A stretch of 12,089 nt of DNA from contig JAISBR010000160.1 of assembly GCA_031266095.1 (NCBI GenBank), positions 1 through 12,089 on the forward strand, written 5' to 3'. The notes under the pieces are model-generated. The model was given only the letters and a program-made list of their open reading frames with translations, had not been told where the DNA came from and searched no databases. The position numbers and the translations under genes are program-made. The stretch comes from Treponema sp. Its GTDB lineage: Bacteria; Spirochaetota; Spirochaetia; Treponematales; Breznakiellaceae. Of the stretch, positions 1,831-11,862 are shown in pieces (position 1 is the first letter of the stretch; each line of letters begins with the position of its first letter).

Positions 1831-2595
1831 ATGGCAGTCATTGATGATGTTCCCGAGGTCCTGCACCGTATCCGGGCACGACTCTATCCCAACTACCTCA
1901 CCACCGTGGAGGGTGCGTATGTCGCCCGCACCGACGACGAGGCGGCCCTCTCCATCGAGAAGGTCTGCGCCGCCATGAAAAACCGCGGCGGCTTCACCGG
2001 CGAGTACGAGGACGCCGTGGAGTACAACCGCCTCTTCATGAGAGAGGCCGCTTACCAGCTCTGCGACGGGTTCTCGGTCAACTTCGGCGGCTTCTTCACC
2101 GTGCGCCCCCGCATCGGCGGCGCCTTCAAGAACGCCGTCGAACCCTGGGACCGGGACAAGCACCCGGTCCGCTTCAGCTTCCACACCCTCAAAGCCCTGC
2201 GGGACATCACGCAGCACATCGAAGTGGTCATCGAGGGCGTCCACGACGGCTCCGGCTACATCGCCGAATTCACCGACGTATCCACGGAGGCGGAGAACGA
2301 GAGCCTGACGCCCGGCGGCATGTTTGTCATCGAGGGCCACAAGCTGAAAATAGCCGGGACCCACGTTGACAACGGCGTGTACTTCGTACTGGCGAGCAAC
2401 CCCGTGTACCGGGAAAAGGTCGACGAGCACTACGCGGAAAACATGCCCGGCAAAATCATCGGCAAAATCCCCAACCTCGCCGCCGGGGGGTGGAAACTGC
2501 GGATAATCACCCAGTTCGCCGCTGGCGGCGCCTTCACCAAAGACCCCCGCACCATCGACTTCGCCCCCATATTAACCGTCTCCGCCCCGAACTAA
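1831..2595 (+). CDS. HU-like DNA-binding domain plus DUF4469 protein
   Basis: This 254-residue protein has no signal peptide or membrane segment. Residues about 1-125 match the HU/IHF-like DNA-binding domain seen at the front of many Bacteroidetes and spirochaete proteins (the RPRIGGAFKN stretch is typical). Residues about 135-250 match DUF4469, a beta-sandwich of the immunoglobulin type, with the motif LTPGGMFVIEGHKLKIAG and a C-terminal LRIITQF strand. The family usually occurs as this same two-domain fusion, so the gene looks complete. The start is fixed by AAGGAGG (1819-1825) five bases before ATG. Codon use is strongly C-ending, more so than in the lipoprotein. The biological role is not established; a nucleoid or phage-related structural role is possible (inference). 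It is followed by a strong terminator. Confidence 0.85.
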   Translation: MAVIDDVPEVLHRIRARLYPNYLTTVEGAYVARTDDEAALSIEKVCAAMKNRGGFTGEYEDAVEYNRLFMREAAYQLCDGFSVNFGGFFTVRPRIGGAFKNAVEPWDRDKHPVRFSFHTLKALRDITQHIEVVIEGVHDGSGYIAEFTDVSTEAENESLTPGGMFVIEGHKLKIAGTHVDNGVYFVLASNPVYREKVDEHYAENMPGKIIGKIPNLAAGGWKLRIITQFAAGGAFTKDPRTIDFAPILTVSAPN

Positions 2596-2615
2596 GCGCC
2601 CGCCGCCCAACCACC

Positions 2616-2642
2616 AAACCCTCCAGCCGGAGGGTTTTTTTT
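2616..2642 (+). terminator. Strong intrinsic terminator after DUF4469 gene
   Basis: AAACCCTCC (2616-2624) pairs with GGAGGGTTT (2629-2637) over a four-base AGCC loop, and the run of eight T residues spans 2635-2642. This is a textbook rho-independent terminator 20 bp after the stop codon. Confidence 0.93.
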
Positions 2643-2683
2643 CGCCGCCTGAGCACAAGCGCTGTCGACACCGCCTCGAAAAG

Positions 2684-2710
2684 CTCCCTCAGCCGGCCTA
2701 GCTGAGGGAG
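2684..2710. repeat. Ten-bp-stem hairpin at left end of the tandem array
   Basis: CTCCCTCAGC (2684-2693) is perfectly complementary to GCTGAGGGAG (2701-2710), with loop CGGCCTA. The 3' arm is the GCTGAGGG core of the first repeat unit, so the array begins inside a hairpin. Confidence 0.8.
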
Positions 2711-2900
2711 GTGAGCCAGGCTAGCAGAGGGAAATGAGCTAAGCTGGCAGAGGGAAGTGAGCAAGCCTAGCAGAGGGTGGCTTCGCTAGCCTAGCTGAGG
2801 GGTACTTTGCTAGCCTAGCTGAGGGGTACTTCGCTAGCTTAGCTGCGAGGGACTTCGCTAGCCTAGCTGAGGGTGGCTTCGCCAGCCTAGCTGAGGGAGG
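2697..2900. repeat. Nine-copy approx. 24-bp tandem array rich in CTAG
   Basis: The GAGGG core starts at 2704, 2727, 2750, 2773, 2797, 2821, 2847, 2869 and 2893, giving periods of 22-26 bp, mostly 23-24. The approximate unit is GCTAGCCTAGCTGAGGG followed by a variable 6-7 bases such as GTACTTC. Eleven CTAG tetranucleotides fall within these 204 bp. The leftmost three internal units (GAGGGAAATGAG type) differ from the central TACTTCGC type, suggesting two sub-families or decay from one side. No long open frame follows the period (24 bp would keep frame, but unit lengths vary), so this is not a coding repeat. It lies between two convergent genes. Confidence 0.9.
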
Positions 2901-2928
2901 TGATTCCAACTTGGAATCAGCCCCCTCA
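2892..2928. repeat. Long hairpin at right end of the tandem array
   Basis: TGAGGG-A-GG-TGATTCCAA pairs with TTGGAATCA-G-CC-CCCTCA around a single C. This makes about 17 pairs with one bulged A and one bulged G; the inner 9-bp palindrome 2901-2919 is perfect. The outer arm is the last array unit, so both ends of the array are folded into hairpins by sequences outside the repeat. Confidence 0.8.
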
Positions 2929-2948
2929 ATTGGCCTCGAAAAGGCTCA

Positions 2949-2981
2949 CTATTCCGGCACGGAATAGGGCCGGAACCGGCC
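2949..2981 (-). repeat. Two adjacent perfect hairpins after the ankyrin gene
   Basis: CTATTCCG-gca-CGGAATAG (2949-2967) and GGCCGG-aa-CCGGCC (2968-2981) abut each other and lie 7 bp beyond the ankyrin stop codon on the minus strand. Neither is followed immediately by a T-run; TTTT appears only after a further 6 bp (minus strand, 2942-2939). They may act as a weak terminator or an mRNA 3'-end stabiliser for the ankyrin transcript. Confidence 0.65.
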
Positions 2982-2988
2982 TTCAGGA

Positions 2989-5793
2989 TTAATTCAGCAG
3001 CGTTACATTCTCATGGCGATTCCAGCGTACCGCGATGTCCGCGGGGCTCTCGGCGGCGATATTTTTCAGGCTCTTGTTGGCGCCCAGTTCCAGCAGCAGC
3101 AGGATGGTATCGGTATTGCTCTGGCGGGCCGCGTAATGGAGGATGGTGTTGCCGGAAGCGTCCCGGGCGTTTATCGCCCTGCCTGAAAAGAGGGCGTATA
3201 TCCCCTCAGAGCCTTTGGTAAGGACAATTTCGGCGGGAGTTCTTCCGTCGCCGGCGGTGGAGAAGGGATCGGAGCCGCTGTCGGCCAGGAGTTTAGCCGA
3301 TTCCCACGCGCTCAGATCCACCGCGAGACGCAGGGGGGTACGGCCGTTGGAATCCACCGCGGTCCGGCGGGCCCCCTGATCAAGGATTATCTTGACCGTT
3401 GACGCCGGCGCTTTTTCCCGCAGGGCGATGTGCAGGGCGGAATTGCCAAAGTCATCGCTGCCGTTTATGCGATCCTTGGTCAGCAGGGTAGATACCATGC
3501 GGGGCGAGACGTTTAAAGCGGTCTGGAACGGGGTCCGCTCACGGGTATTCCGGGCATGGATTGAAACGCCCATCCGTAACAGGACATTTACCAGATCGGA
3601 GCGTTCCATATTGACCGCCATGTGGAGGGGTGTATCGCCCCGGACATTTCTGGTCATGGGGTCCGCTCCCCGCGCCGCCAGCCGTTCCATTGATCCGGTA
3701 TAGCCGGCTATAACCGCTTCCATGAAGGGGGTATTGCCGTCGGTGTTCCGCACTTCGGGATCCGCCCCCCGGCTTATAAGGATGATCTCAATATCGCTGA
3801 TGCCCAGGCGTACCGCATCGTGGAGCGGGGTATTGCCGCTGAGGTTATGGGCGTTGATATCTATTCCCGATTCAATCAGGGTAAGGGCGGAGTTTTTCGC
3901 GTTCCAGCGTACGGCGGCGTGGAGTACCGAATTGCCGAAGGTGTCACGGGCGTGGAGATTGGCCTTGGAGGCAAGCAGGGTTCTGACGGTTGACGCGCCG
4001 TCATGCTTGACCGCCATGAACAGGGGCGTTTCTCCGGTGGCGTTCGCTGTTTCCACCGATAAGCCCTGCTGGATGATAAAGGGGATGTGCTGATCCATTT
4101 TCCACTGCGCGGCGTAATGGAGCATACTGTTTCCCAGCCCGTCCCTGGCGGTGATGGTCCGGGGATTAAACATCCACTGCCGCCGCTCTCCGGGGGAAGT
4201 AAGCGCGAGGTAGAGCGGGCTTTCCCCCGCCGAGTTGGACGCGAAAATATCCGCTCCCCGGGAGATGAGGAATTCCCCGCTTTCCCGCTGATTGGTCCGC
4301 ACCGCGATATGCAGGGCCGTATCCCCTTCTTTATTGCGGGCATTGACCAGGGCCCGCTGATCGAGGATAAGGGAGATGATACTGGGATCGCCCCGGTTTT
4401 TGACTGCCGCGTGGAGCAGGGTGTTTCCCGCATTGTCGCTCTGGTGTACCGTTTCAGGGGTTATGAGTTCGTCCAGGGCGAACCCGTTATCCCGCATGGC
4501 CCGGTCAAAGGGGGTAACGCCTGAATTATCCGCCGCGAACAGATCCGAGCCATAGACCAGGAGCAGGGGAATGAGGTTGATGCGGTTTTCTTCCACCGCC
4601 AGGTAGAGGGGGGTCTTCCCGTCGATATTCCTGATTGAAACGTCCGACCCGCCTCCAAGGAGTGTTTGCGCCAGATAGGGACTCCGGTTCAGGGTAACGA
4701 TAATATGCAGCGGGGTTTCACCGTGTTCATCACGGAGGTTCGGGTTGGCCCCGTAGTCAAGGAACAGGCCCAGGGCCTGGAGATGCTGCTCGGCGGGAAT
4801 ACCGATATGCAGGGGTGTATTCCCCTTGGCGTCCTGGGCGTTTACTTCCGCGCCCTGGTTGAGGAGCATCTGCATAATCCAGATGTTGCCGGAACGGGCC
4901 GCCTCGTGCAGGGGTGTAGCGCCGGCGAGGTTTTTGAGATTGACGTCGGCCCTTTTCTCAATGAGGAATGAGATAAGGCCTTCATGGCCTTCCCGGGCGG
5001 CGTAGTGCAGCGGGGCAAGTCCGTCGCTGCGGCGGACATTGTAGTTGGCGCTGCGGGCGGCCGGGGCAAAATAAGGGAATACAGGGTTTTCCGAGACCGC
5101 GCCGGCAAGGATAAGCCGCTCGGCGATTTCGATATGATCCCGCGAATCCGGCCGGAGCAGGGCCAGATCAAGGGCGTTGTTCCCGTCAATATCTTTTTTC
5201 TCCGCGGCATTGCCCGGATTATCGGCGGTTGAGAGAATGTCGTCTACCGCCGGGATATTGCCGGCGATACTTGCCAGGTGGAGGATGGTTCTTCCCTCAG
5301 CATCGCTTGTTTCAACGGTGGCGGGGGTCAGGATGGCCTGTAGAAAAGCCTGGTCCCCCTCAACGGCAAGTATAGCGGGGCTTGACCAGGCGTTGATGGG
5401 CTTATGTATATCCGCGCCCGCCGTGACCAGTATCCTGGCAATTTCGGGATCACCTTTTTCCGCGCAGATCCCCAAAGGCGTCTGGCCCTCATCGTCCTGG
5501 GCGTCTACCTCAGCGCCAAGGGAGATGAAAAAGGCCGCCAGGGTGGAGTCTCCTAATTCCGCGGCGTAGTGGAGTGGCGTCCTGCCCAGGGAATCCCGTG
5601 CGTGAACATCTACTTCCCCCAAAAAATAATCCTTAGCCCGGCCGTCGCCCTGGGCCAGCAGTGACCATACATCCTCACGAGGGCGAGGGGCTTCAACCGG
5701 CTTGGGCTTTGGGGCGCTGCGACAGCCCGCCATAATCAGGAAATACACCCCTAAACCCGTGATAAACGCTCTGAAAAGAACTGTAGACTTCAT
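2989..5793 (-). CDS. Ankyrin-repeat lipoprotein (about 26 repeats)
   Basis: This 934-residue protein starts with a lipoprotein signal (lipobox IMAGC, Cys24), so it is predicted to be exported and membrane-anchored. A short Pro/Lys linker (residues 28-40) is followed by about 26 ankyrin-type units, recognised by the recurring G-x-T-P-L-H-x-A-A/V motif roughly every 33 residues from residue 70 to the C-terminus. Several units are degenerate, with insertions (near 120-235 and 440-460). No other domain is visible, so it is probably a protein-binding scaffold. Ankyrin proteins of host-associated bacteria often contact host proteins, but a periplasmic or surface location is the prediction here (inference). 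The start lacks a clear Shine-Dalgarno; two hairpins occupy the 55 bp upstream. A TATAAT-like box on the minus strand at 5867-5862 may be its -10. The gene faces convergently into the tandem array. Confidence 0.93.
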   Translation of the reverse strand: MKSTVLFRAFITGLGVYFLIMAGCRSAPKPKPVEAPRPREDVWSLLAQGDGRAKDYFLGEVDVHARDSLGRTPLHYAAELGDSTLAAFFISLGAEVDAQDDEGQTPLGICAEKGDPEIARILVTAGADIHKPINAWSSPAILAVEGDQAFLQAILTPATVETSDAEGRTILHLASIAGNIPAVDDILSTADNPGNAAEKKDIDGNNALDLALLRPDSRDHIEIAERLILAGAVSENPVFPYFAPAARSANYNVRRSDGLAPLHYAAREGHEGLISFLIEKRADVNLKNLAGATPLHEAARSGNIWIMQMLLNQGAEVNAQDAKGNTPLHIGIPAEQHLQALGLFLDYGANPNLRDEHGETPLHIIVTLNRSPYLAQTLLGGGSDVSIRNIDGKTPLYLAVEENRINLIPLLLVYGSDLFAADNSGVTPFDRAMRDNGFALDELITPETVHQSDNAGNTLLHAAVKNRGDPSIISLILDQRALVNARNKEGDTALHIAVRTNQRESGEFLISRGADIFASNSAGESPLYLALTSPGERRQWMFNPRTITARDGLGNSMLHYAAQWKMDQHIPFIIQQGLSVETANATGETPLFMAVKHDGASTVRTLLASKANLHARDTFGNSVLHAAVRWNAKNSALTLIESGIDINAHNLSGNTPLHDAVRLGISDIEIILISRGADPEVRNTDGNTPFMEAVIAGYTGSMERLAARGADPMTRNVRGDTPLHMAVNMERSDLVNVLLRMGVSIHARNTRERTPFQTALNVSPRMVSTLLTKDRINGSDDFGNSALHIALREKAPASTVKIILDQGARRTAVDSNGRTPLRLAVDLSAWESAKLLADSGSDPFSTAGDGRTPAEIVLTKGSEGIYALFSGRAINARDASGNTILHYAARQSNTDTILLLLELGANKSLKNIAAESPADIAVRWNRHENVTLLN

Positions 5794-7474: not shown

Positions 7475-8392
7475 TCACTTCTTCGCCAGTTCCGTCACGC
7501 TCGTCACCAGTCCCGCCAGGTTTTGAATATCCGACGGGATAATGATCTTGGTGGCCTGGCCTTCGGCGACTTTTTGCAGGGCCTCAAGGCTCTTGAGTTT
7601 TATCAACGCTTCGTCGGCGGCGACCGCTTTGAGCAAGCTCAGGCCCTCGGCGGTGGCTTTCTGGATGTTGAGAATCGCTTGGGCCTCGCCTTCGGCCTCC
7701 CGAATCGACGCCTCCTTGGTAGCTTCGGCCTGCAGGATCATCGCCGCCTTTTCAGCCTCGGCCTTGAGGATCGCCGAAGCCTTCTGTCCCTCCGCCACCA
7801 GAATCGCCGACTGCTTTTCACCTTCCGCCTTGAGGATCGATTCCCGGCGTTCCCGCTCGGCCCGCATCTGTTTCTCCATGGCTTCCTGGATGCTCTTCGG
7901 CGGCGTGATGTTTTTCACTTCGACCCGGTTCACCTTGATGCCCCAGGGATCGGTTGCCTCGTCAAGCACGATCCGCATCCGGCTATTGATCATGTCCCGG
8001 CTGGTAAGGGTTTCGTCCAGTTCAAGCTCACCGATGATGTTCCGCAAAGTGGTAATGGACAAGTTCTCAATGGCCATAAAGGGATTCACCACGCCGTAGG
8101 TGTAGAGTTTGGGATCGGTGATTTGCAGATAGATCACCGTGTCTATCATCATGGTGACATTGTCTTTGGTTATAACCGGCTGGGGCTCAAAATCAGCCAC
8201 CTGTTCTTTGAGGGAAACTCTGTTGGCGAGCCGATCAATAAACGGTACTTTTATATGAATACCCACGCCCCAGGTATCGCAGTAAGCGCCCAATCGCTCA
8301 AGCACACAGGCGTTTGACTGTGAAACGATTCTGATATTGGTGATAATCAACAGCAGAACAAAAGCAACTAACACAATAAGCACATAAGTCAT
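7475..8392 (-). CDS. SPFH/band-7 membrane protein, QmcA/paraslipin type
   Basis: This 305-residue protein is of the stomatin-prohibitin-flotillin-HflK/C superfamily. An N-terminal transmembrane segment (2-19) anchors the SPFH domain (about 21-190), which contains the family markers VSQSNACVLERLG, TKDNVTMMIDTVIYLQI and AMEKQMRAERERRESILKAEGE. A long Ala/Glu-rich coiled coil follows (about 172-275), then a short hydrophobic tail (about 281-300). Such proteins oligomerise into membrane microdomain scaffolds. The start at 8392 is chosen over an upstream in-frame ATG (8452) because GGAGG (8404-8400) lies 7 nt before it and the earlier start would overlap the NfeD gene by 47 bp. It sits 13 bp after NfeD, the standard partner arrangement (ybbJ-ybbK in E. 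coli). Confidence 0.93.
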   Translation of the reverse strand: MTYVLIVLVAFVLLLIITNIRIVSQSNACVLERLGAYCDTWGVGIHIKVPFIDRLANRVSLKEQVADFEPQPVITKDNVTMMIDTVIYLQITDPKLYTYGVVNPFMAIENLSITTLRNIIGELELDETLTSRDMINSRMRIVLDEATDPWGIKVNRVEVKNITPPKSIQEAMEKQMRAERERRESILKAEGEKQSAILVAEGQKASAILKAEAEKAAMILQAEATKEASIREAEGEAQAILNIQKATAEGLSLLKAVAADEALIKLKSLEALQKVAEGQATKIIIPSDIQNLAGLVTSVTELAKK

Positions 8393-11374: not shown

Positions 11375-11543
11375 AATAACCTCCATGCTTACGGTAGCAC
11401 AAGGAAGCGTTTTATTAAATAGACTTGTTCGCTAACCCTGTTAAATCCGTAATTCAAAGTTGATAATACCACATATAAGAGTCATTCTTGACAAATATTG
11501 CAACTATTCAGCCGATTTTCCTATAGCAAGTGTTATTGTTATG

Positions 11544-11552
11544 TGATATAAT
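11544..11552 (+). promoter_or_regulatory. Extended -10 promoter before IS66-type fragment
   Basis: TGATATAAT is a perfect extended -10 (TG-N-TATAAT). It ends 10 bp before the ATG at 11563, so the leader would be only a few bases long and no ribosome site is present. No -35 match is needed for such promoters. The rest of the 188-bp gap 11375-11562 is AT-rich and holds no gene. Confidence 0.55.
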
Positions 11553-11562
11553 AAAACACGGG

Positions 11563-11862
11563 ATGGGAAACAGTATAAACATACAGGAGACCATAGAAAG
11601 GGCTCGGAAACAAATAACAAACGAGCCGAACCTCTCACCGGCCTTGAAAACCACTTTTGACCTGCTCATTAACCTCTGTCTGCTCCTTGCCGAAACACGG
11701 TTGGTAAAAAATTCATCAAACAGTAACATTCCGCCATCGGCAGACCCGAAGCGGGAAAAAACATCAAAGGCCAGAGGAAAAAGGAAATCCGGCGGACAGG
11801 CTGGGCATCCGGGGGCAACCCTGAAGCCGGTGGATAAGCCGGACAAGATAGCCGGAGGGTAA
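11563..11862 (+). pseudogene. IS66-family transposase, N-terminal fragment
   Basis: The 99 residues match the start of IS66-type (TnpC) transposases: a helical N-terminus, then KNSSNSNIPPSADPKREK (49-66) and the basic GKRKSGGQAGHPGATLKPV stretch (72-90). Full-length proteins are about 450-550 residues. Here translation ends at TAA 11860-11862, just after the KPDKI motif, and none of the following DNA resembles the zinc-binding or DDE domains. The gene has therefore lost about four fifths of its length. The breakpoint lies near 11845-11862, where unrelated sequence on the opposite strand begins. It cannot be active alone, though its promoter looks intact. No terminal inverted repeat was identified. 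Confidence 0.85.

Follow-up and report, generated by a model that had tools for sequence, protein, structure and literature searches.

Intergenic repeats of bacteria take several described forms. Repetitive extragenic palindromic (REP) sequences and bacterial interspersed mosaic elements (BIMEs) are intergenic, palindromic and clustered, with REP sequences recurring throughout the genome. Here we analyze a tandem array in a contig of Treponema sp., a spirochaete of the termite-gut type (GCA_031266095.1, JAISBR010000160.1; the window below means this whole stretch of 12,089 nucleotides), in which nine short units lie between two convergent genes. Subirana and Messeguer (2021; PMC8161180) described a class of non-coding bacterial tandem repeats of constant size and variable sequence; as set out in the sections drawn on here, such arrays have at least four tandem copies of a 20- to 23-nt (or 52-nt) unit, their sequences are not conserved between species, and one genome holds several arrays that are alike in size and different in sequence. 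For the unit size, those sections point to two helix turns. The same authors reported satellite families of 46, 46, 46, 69, and 37 nt in Leptospira interrogans, where, in the part of the paper used here, about two thirds of the satellites are intergenic and scattered (Subirana and Messeguer 2019; PMC6749651). The BOX elements of streptococci are intergenic as well, and their cited description places a variable tandem boxB between boxA and boxC (PMC3049150).

The array occupies a 393-bp gap between an HU/DUF4469 gene (1831-2595, plus strand) and an ankyrin-repeat gene (2989-5793, minus strand), and its nine contiguous units follow one another at spacings of three times 23 bp and then five times 24 bp. 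Tandem Repeats Finder (TRF) reported it in two parts, 2691-2777 with period 23 (79% matches) and 2764-2897 with period 24 (85% matches), and its top score in 1,000 dinucleotide shuffles of the gap was 63, compared with 184 observed. An initial annotation of this DNA had proposed a CTAG-dense array of roughly 24-bp units at 2697-2900. TRF, the core positions, and the shuffles bear out nine contiguous units with 11 CTAGs at that location, but the tandem unit divides into a 23-bp part and a 24-bp part, and the structure is slightly longer, bounded by inverted repeats and an 11-bp direct repeat (Table 1). The same annotation was right that the gap is convergent and intergenic, no gene being found in the array, and that the array is palindromic: between the cores of the 24-bp units runs the inverted repeat GCTAG-C-CTAGC, perfect three times and with one change twice. 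The array is not a product of chance, nor is it a CRISPR locus, as had been recognized, since no unique spacers separate the repeats. Neither is it a cluster of terminators, which had been offered as one possibility, because neither of the two terminator-like sites in 2400-3200 is within it and the one at 2616-2637 lies 5' of it.

Set beside the class of PMC8161180, as far as the cited sections define it, the array is likewise non-coding, exceeds four copies, and has a sequence without convincing match among 195 genomes from the family of its nearest relatives and 120 from the phylum. Three spacings have the published size and five are 24 bp; a near relative, G178, has both sizes in one tract and also several arrays that agree in size and differ in sequence. 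The slower-changing palindrome arms and the bracketing modules reported below are not part of the description in those sections, and a word search of the main text found none of palindrom-, hairpin, Treponema, or Spirochaet-. Allowing for the five 24-bp spacings, the array matches this class. Leptospira is also a spirochaete, and 46 and 69 nt (Table 2 of PMC6749651) are two and three times 23, a likeness of lengths only that leaves out the additional 37-nt family. Searches of open-licence PubMed Central papers yielded no account of arrays like these in Treponema from termite guts, which is weak evidence of absence.

The format recurs in relatives. We surveyed about 1.78 Mb from 33 genomes in the family of the nearest relatives with one TRF setting, an open-frame filter, and a minimum of 2.5 copies, and found 21 non-coding arrays in 10 genomes, with periods of 21 and 23 bp (seven each) and of 12, 15, 20, 22, 26, 46, and 102 bp (one each); 16 of the 21 fall at 20 to 23 bp. 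The sample is non-random, consisting of genomes picked for their known long contigs and including G012, G044, G081, G153, and G192, which were taken after pattern matches, and its array densities are no estimate for the family. Coding status was judged by open frames alone, contigs of metagenome-assembled genomes may break at repeats, and the survey omits L211, which overlaps L210, and small loci from searches. By ornithine carbamoyltransferase gene DNA the closest of the genomes compared are G180 and G178 (84%) and G177 (81%), and these differ sharply: G178 has five survey arrays in 169 kb, all of period 23, whereas the same filter found none in 229 kb of G180 and only a 102-bp array in 196 kb of G177. 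Among all fetched loci, at periods of 18 to 27 bp and at least 3.5 copies, 21 non-coding rows (the window counted twice) have periods of 21 (6), 22 (1), 23 (12), and 24 (2), and arrays in open frames 21 (10), 23 (3), and 24 (1). At L163 of G178, a 24-bp and a 23-bp array stand 10 bp apart, comparable to the two adjoining parts in the window. Rough gene calls around 18 arrays placed 7 in convergent gaps, 5 in tandem ones, and 3 in divergent ones, with 3 undecided; these numbers are too small to claim a preference for convergent gaps.

The sequence, unlike the format, is that of a single locus. Array DNA had no convincing match in the 195 family genomes, where two short ones were found (33 bp at 85%, E 0.002; 29 bp at 86%, E 0.0095), and six genomes reached via ankyrin loci gave four matches of 16 to 19 bp (E 0.3 to 0.7). 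Allowing at most one mismatch, the 16-mer CTAGCCTAGCTGAGGG occurred in none of the 120 phylum genomes; among viral contigs it was exact once, in a contig without an array, and in phage and plasmid searches only the terminator end of the query matched. Two copies of AGCNGAGGG within 10 to 20 bp were present in 11 of the 195 genomes and in 6 with the reversed control, no clear enrichment. A 26-bp unit of G012 starting with AGCTGAGGGGGTAC resembles AGCTGAGGGGTAC of the window; we did not count this as kinship, because the search pattern itself had selected G012. The dispersed palindromic repeat that the initial annotation had suggested is not supported by these searches, and while the array resembles REP sequences and BIMEs in being intergenic, palindromic, and clustered, no comparable sharing of its unit was found in these relatives. 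That annotation had also named a single locus without relatives as the outcome that would speak for a local chance duplication, which describes the sequence and not the format.

That CTAG is the key feature, as the initial annotation had treated it, is not supported. Within the window, 11 of 14 CTAGs lie inside the array (2698-2887) and three in the other 11.8 kb, and 11 copies were reached in 1 of 1,000 dinucleotide shuffles of the gap (mean 4.6). The tetranucleotide is avoided in the sampled DNA of relatives (seen versus expected: G180, 41/127; G178, 27/116; G177, 45/119), and its abundance here despite that avoidance is what would speak for a CTAG-centred protein or repair site. We consider such a site extremely improbable: only one of the 19 other non-coding arrays has CTAG (two copies), and here it coincides with the palindrome arms. 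Because of that one in 19, CTAG is not a motif common to the arrays; it is an arm of this unit's palindrome.

At most of the corresponding loci the array is absent. Of 16 relatives, 15, among them G180 and G178, had no tandem repeat downstream of the ankyrin gene at a TRF score of 40, within a scanned span of 700 bp or less at contig ends (192 bp in L005, 459 bp in G178). The HU gene of G177 shares 80% DNA identity over 276 bp and is followed by a terminator-like sequence and no array; the ATTCC..GGAAT palindromes after the gene are 22 bp apart in G177 versus 264 bp in the window. The flank matches between the two are short (E 0.005 to 0.017; for example, window 2946-2966 against L071 1488-1508, 21 bp at 86%, E 0.017), and the array-free site is partly resolved, as a single CAGCCCCC-tailed palindrome of G177 matches both window palindromes.

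Across the arrays, the units tend to contain inverted repeats whose arms vary less than the rest. The longest stems were summed over 23 unit consensuses, two of them belonging to the window and three to arrays that the filter afterwards classed as coding; the total was 111, compared with 78.4 (sd 5.6, at most 94) for 400 mononucleotide shuffles, and 103 versus 71.9 without the window. All 14 non-coding arrays with a stem of at least 5 bp had arms less variable than the remainder, with a mean difference of -0.127, and none of 5,000 rotations was as low. A neutral simulation under the same procedure gave -0.022 with a built-in stem and -0.002 with a chance stem, and 14 of 14 negative differences in 0.08% and 0.02% of draws, respectively. 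With shorter stems, the arms were less variable in five of seven non-coding arrays (p = 0.03).

Our preferred reading, probable though by no means certain, places the array among the non-coding hairpin satellites of constant size and variable sequence, and includes a proposed amplification and a length constraint. A short palindromic sequence 3' of the HU-gene terminator would have been amplified in tandem in this lineage, through slippage or recombination. The unit sequence would then be free to change while the unit length stays near two DNA turns (21 to 24 bp), and the arms of the inverted repeat would be slower to change than the loop and spacer. The most likely reason may be that each unit is a putative symmetric site for a DNA-binding protein dimer, or a DNA hairpin, with the units presumably repeated on the same helix face; we infer such a function because a length of about two turns and constrained symmetric arms would fit either.

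Several results weigh against this explanation. Five of the eight spacings in the window lie just outside the published size range, 23 of the 33 genomes in the non-random survey have no non-coding array, and the site after the ankyrin gene is not array-free everywhere: G183 has a weak 21-bp array there, on the same side of the gene (L068 231-307, equal to L028 3855-3931; 3.7 copies, 64% matches), with a sequence unrelated to that of the window. The palindromy of the window is weak alone (p = 0.115 for the 24-bp unit and p = 0.85 for the 23-bp unit). Its 24-bp part has an arm variability of 0.040 versus 0.143, the right direction but not significant alone (rotation rank 0.12), and its 23-bp part goes in the wrong direction (0.125 in the arms versus 0.111). 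Palindromy and slower arms therefore rest on the array class, and the window by itself does not prove them. Within the class, the best stem does not exceed 3 to 4 bp in 7 of the 21 non-coding rows with at least 3.5 copies, two of the 14 (L124 and L163 1307-1415) are non-independent, with similar units, and arrays in open frames also tend to slower arms, in six of seven with a stem of at least 5 bp (p = 0.073) and five of seven with a shorter one (p = 0.048). Compensatory double changes numbered 4 against 81 one-sided cells (22 of them G-T) in 11 arrays, and the window had none. A conserved RNA fold with covariation is not supported by these counts. Because the arms vary less while compensatory changes are rare, the comparison points to arms in which the letters themselves would be conserved, like those of a symmetric protein site, and away from a covarying RNA helix.

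The main rival is a neutral minisatellite, in which a palindromic intergenic sequence was expanded by replication slippage and has no function, its unit size coming from the mechanics of hairpin slippage. It would account for a sequence private to this locus among the family and phylum genomes, for the absence of the array at most related loci, and for its location downstream of genes, and hairpin-assisted slippage is plausible because the RNA fold of the array region is better than that of its dinucleotide shuffles for each strand (z -3.3 and -4.0). However, the clustering of periods at 20 to 23 bp speaks against it, as do the slower arms in 14 of 14 arrays, which go beyond the neutral simulation, although arm-biased homogenisation could still yield them; on balance we find neutrality possible but rather unlikely. 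We find it very improbable that the array is a gene for a short repetitive peptide (minus strand, 2739-2909; 56 aa, PSARLAKx repeats). In its favour, 24 bp make eight codons and no stop interrupts the frame in the 24-bp part; against it, the start codon is TTG, the 23-bp part breaks the repeat, and a 23-bp period, as in arrays of relatives, is incompatible with a constant encoded repeat. The remaining frames are of 71 and 76 aa, which reach only into the left part of the array, and of 28 and 30 aa; in all, five open reading frames (ORFs) of at least 25 aa overlap the gap and none reaches 80 aa.

The bracketing sequences raise the possibility that the array forms the variable inner part of an element like BOX or a miniature inverted-repeat transposable element (MITE), bracketed by shared sequence. 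An 11-bp direct repeat, GCCTCGAAAAG, stands on both sides of the array, and flanking direct repeats of at least 11 bp accompany 4 of 25 arrays (the window, L124, L205, and L115) versus 0.33% of 3,000 random placements, a lenient control, as intergenic DNA is rich in dispersed repeats. In G178, arrays of differing 23-bp units occur at one junction of a module of about 115 bp, which a 19-mer with up to two mismatches located at 48 places in G178, 13 in G180, and none in G177 (reversed 19-mer: 0, 2, and 1), in many G178 places in tandem at 113 to 115 bp. G053 follows the same plan with unrelated letters, a 22-bp array (ATCAG-GTT-CTGAT) at L205 14640-15180 alternating with a module containing CCTAGCTAAGACTCAAGAC. 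These loci of G178 and G053 recall BOX in having an intergenic module with a variable tandem interior, but BOX, in its cited description, has one sequence across loci, whereas here the unit sequences differ by locus. In place of the conserved end modules of BOX, the window shows the 11-bp bracket only, which is unlike both modules and had no match in the DNA sampled from G180, G177, G178, or G012; the longest inverted match between its 60-bp flanks, where MITEs and insertion elements have terminal inverted repeats, is 6 bp. The direct repeat could be a target duplication and proves none, and we judge an element of this sort quite improbable. Some chance, albeit a small one, may be given to a family-specific dedicated process that makes and spreads hairpin units of about 23-bp step at the junctions of bracketing modules. 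Unrelated units would then grow at fixed junctions (the modules of G178 and G053, the bracket of the window), and the reader, a protein or nucleic-acid machine, would read length and symmetry, not letters.

The module of about 115 bp is itself structured, about ACCGCGCGGCGGCTTTAGC...CACGGCGTAAGCCGTG..., with hairpin loops GTAA, GCAA, and GAAA. It was seen at G178 L118, L119, L126, and L134-L163 (e.g., L161 1256-2335) and at G180 L143 and L147, and some of the G180 matches to the 19-mer look like chance. No Rfam family matched the module; on five G178 and G180 loci with module and array, only one tRNA was above threshold, and the L118/L138 array had microRNA family matches far below it. At G012 L114 1-118 and L115, arrays of 21, 23, and 26 bp have GGGGACAGACC nearby or on both sides.

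The features of the gap are collected in Table 1. A promoter scan of 2400-3200 found none, and Rfam gave nothing near the gathering score for 2500-3100, with two chance matches (E 0.87 and 0.81). Domains in the window, the ankyrin repeats included, were assigned with Pfam. The ankyrin protein best matches that of Spirochaetia bacterium MS502-68 (65% identity in the best segment) and is 52 to 61% identical to seven further Treponema, Spirochaetaceae, or Spirochaetia records. Elsewhere in the window, a run of 22 C (84-105) lies about 115 bp 5' of where a lipoprotein-like gene (ORF 154-1752) probably starts; it is either a candidate site of phase variation by slippage or an artefact of sequencing. 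An SPFH/Band 7 gene, adjoined by an NfeD-like gene, contains 33-bp repeats (7728-7839), and a short ORF at 11530-11862 has a DUF6444 match slightly below the cutoff.

Table 1. Features of the array and its flanks in the window.
Feature	Coordinates	Strand	Evidence
HU/DUF4469 gene intrinsic terminator, 5' of array	2616..2637	+	Terminator scan; similar sequence at G177 L071 1446-1466
Left copy of 11-bp bracketing direct repeat GCCTCGAAAAG	2673..2683	+	Flank comparison
Perfect 10-bp stem-loop CTCCCTCAGC-CGGCCTA-GCTGAGGGAG, overlaps unit 1	2684..2710	.	Sequence, fold
Units 1-3, 23 bp each (cores 2700, 2723, 2746)	2700..2768	+	TRF; variant core 2746 by eye
Units 4-9, 24-bp spacing (cores 2769, 2793, 2817, 2841, 2865, 2889); unit 9 extends into right-end stem-loop	2769..2911	+	TRF, core positions
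Imperfect stem-loop TGAGGGAGGTGATTCCA-ACT-TGGAATCAGCCCCCTCA, 17-bp arms, two mismatches, overlaps unit 9	2892..2928	.	Sequence, fold
Right copy of 11-bp bracketing direct repeat GCCTCGAAAAG	2933..2943	+	Flank comparison
Palindrome TATTCCGGCACGGAATA outside array	2950..2966	.	Similar palindrome after HU gene in array-free G177

As a single locus, the array is an ordinary example of its class. The class itself poses a question, since in the parts of this literature drawn on here the kept unit length and drifting sequence of short non-coding bacterial arrays are unexplained. The locus and its relatives offer two handles on it, the sharp difference between close relatives such as G178 and G180 and a measurable constraint on the palindrome arms. 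The Leptospira lengths of 46 and 69 nt, in the part of that paper cited above, raise the possibility of a spirochaete-wide 23-bp step. Should a protein bind the arms, a comparison of array-rich with array-poor relatives ought to reveal it.
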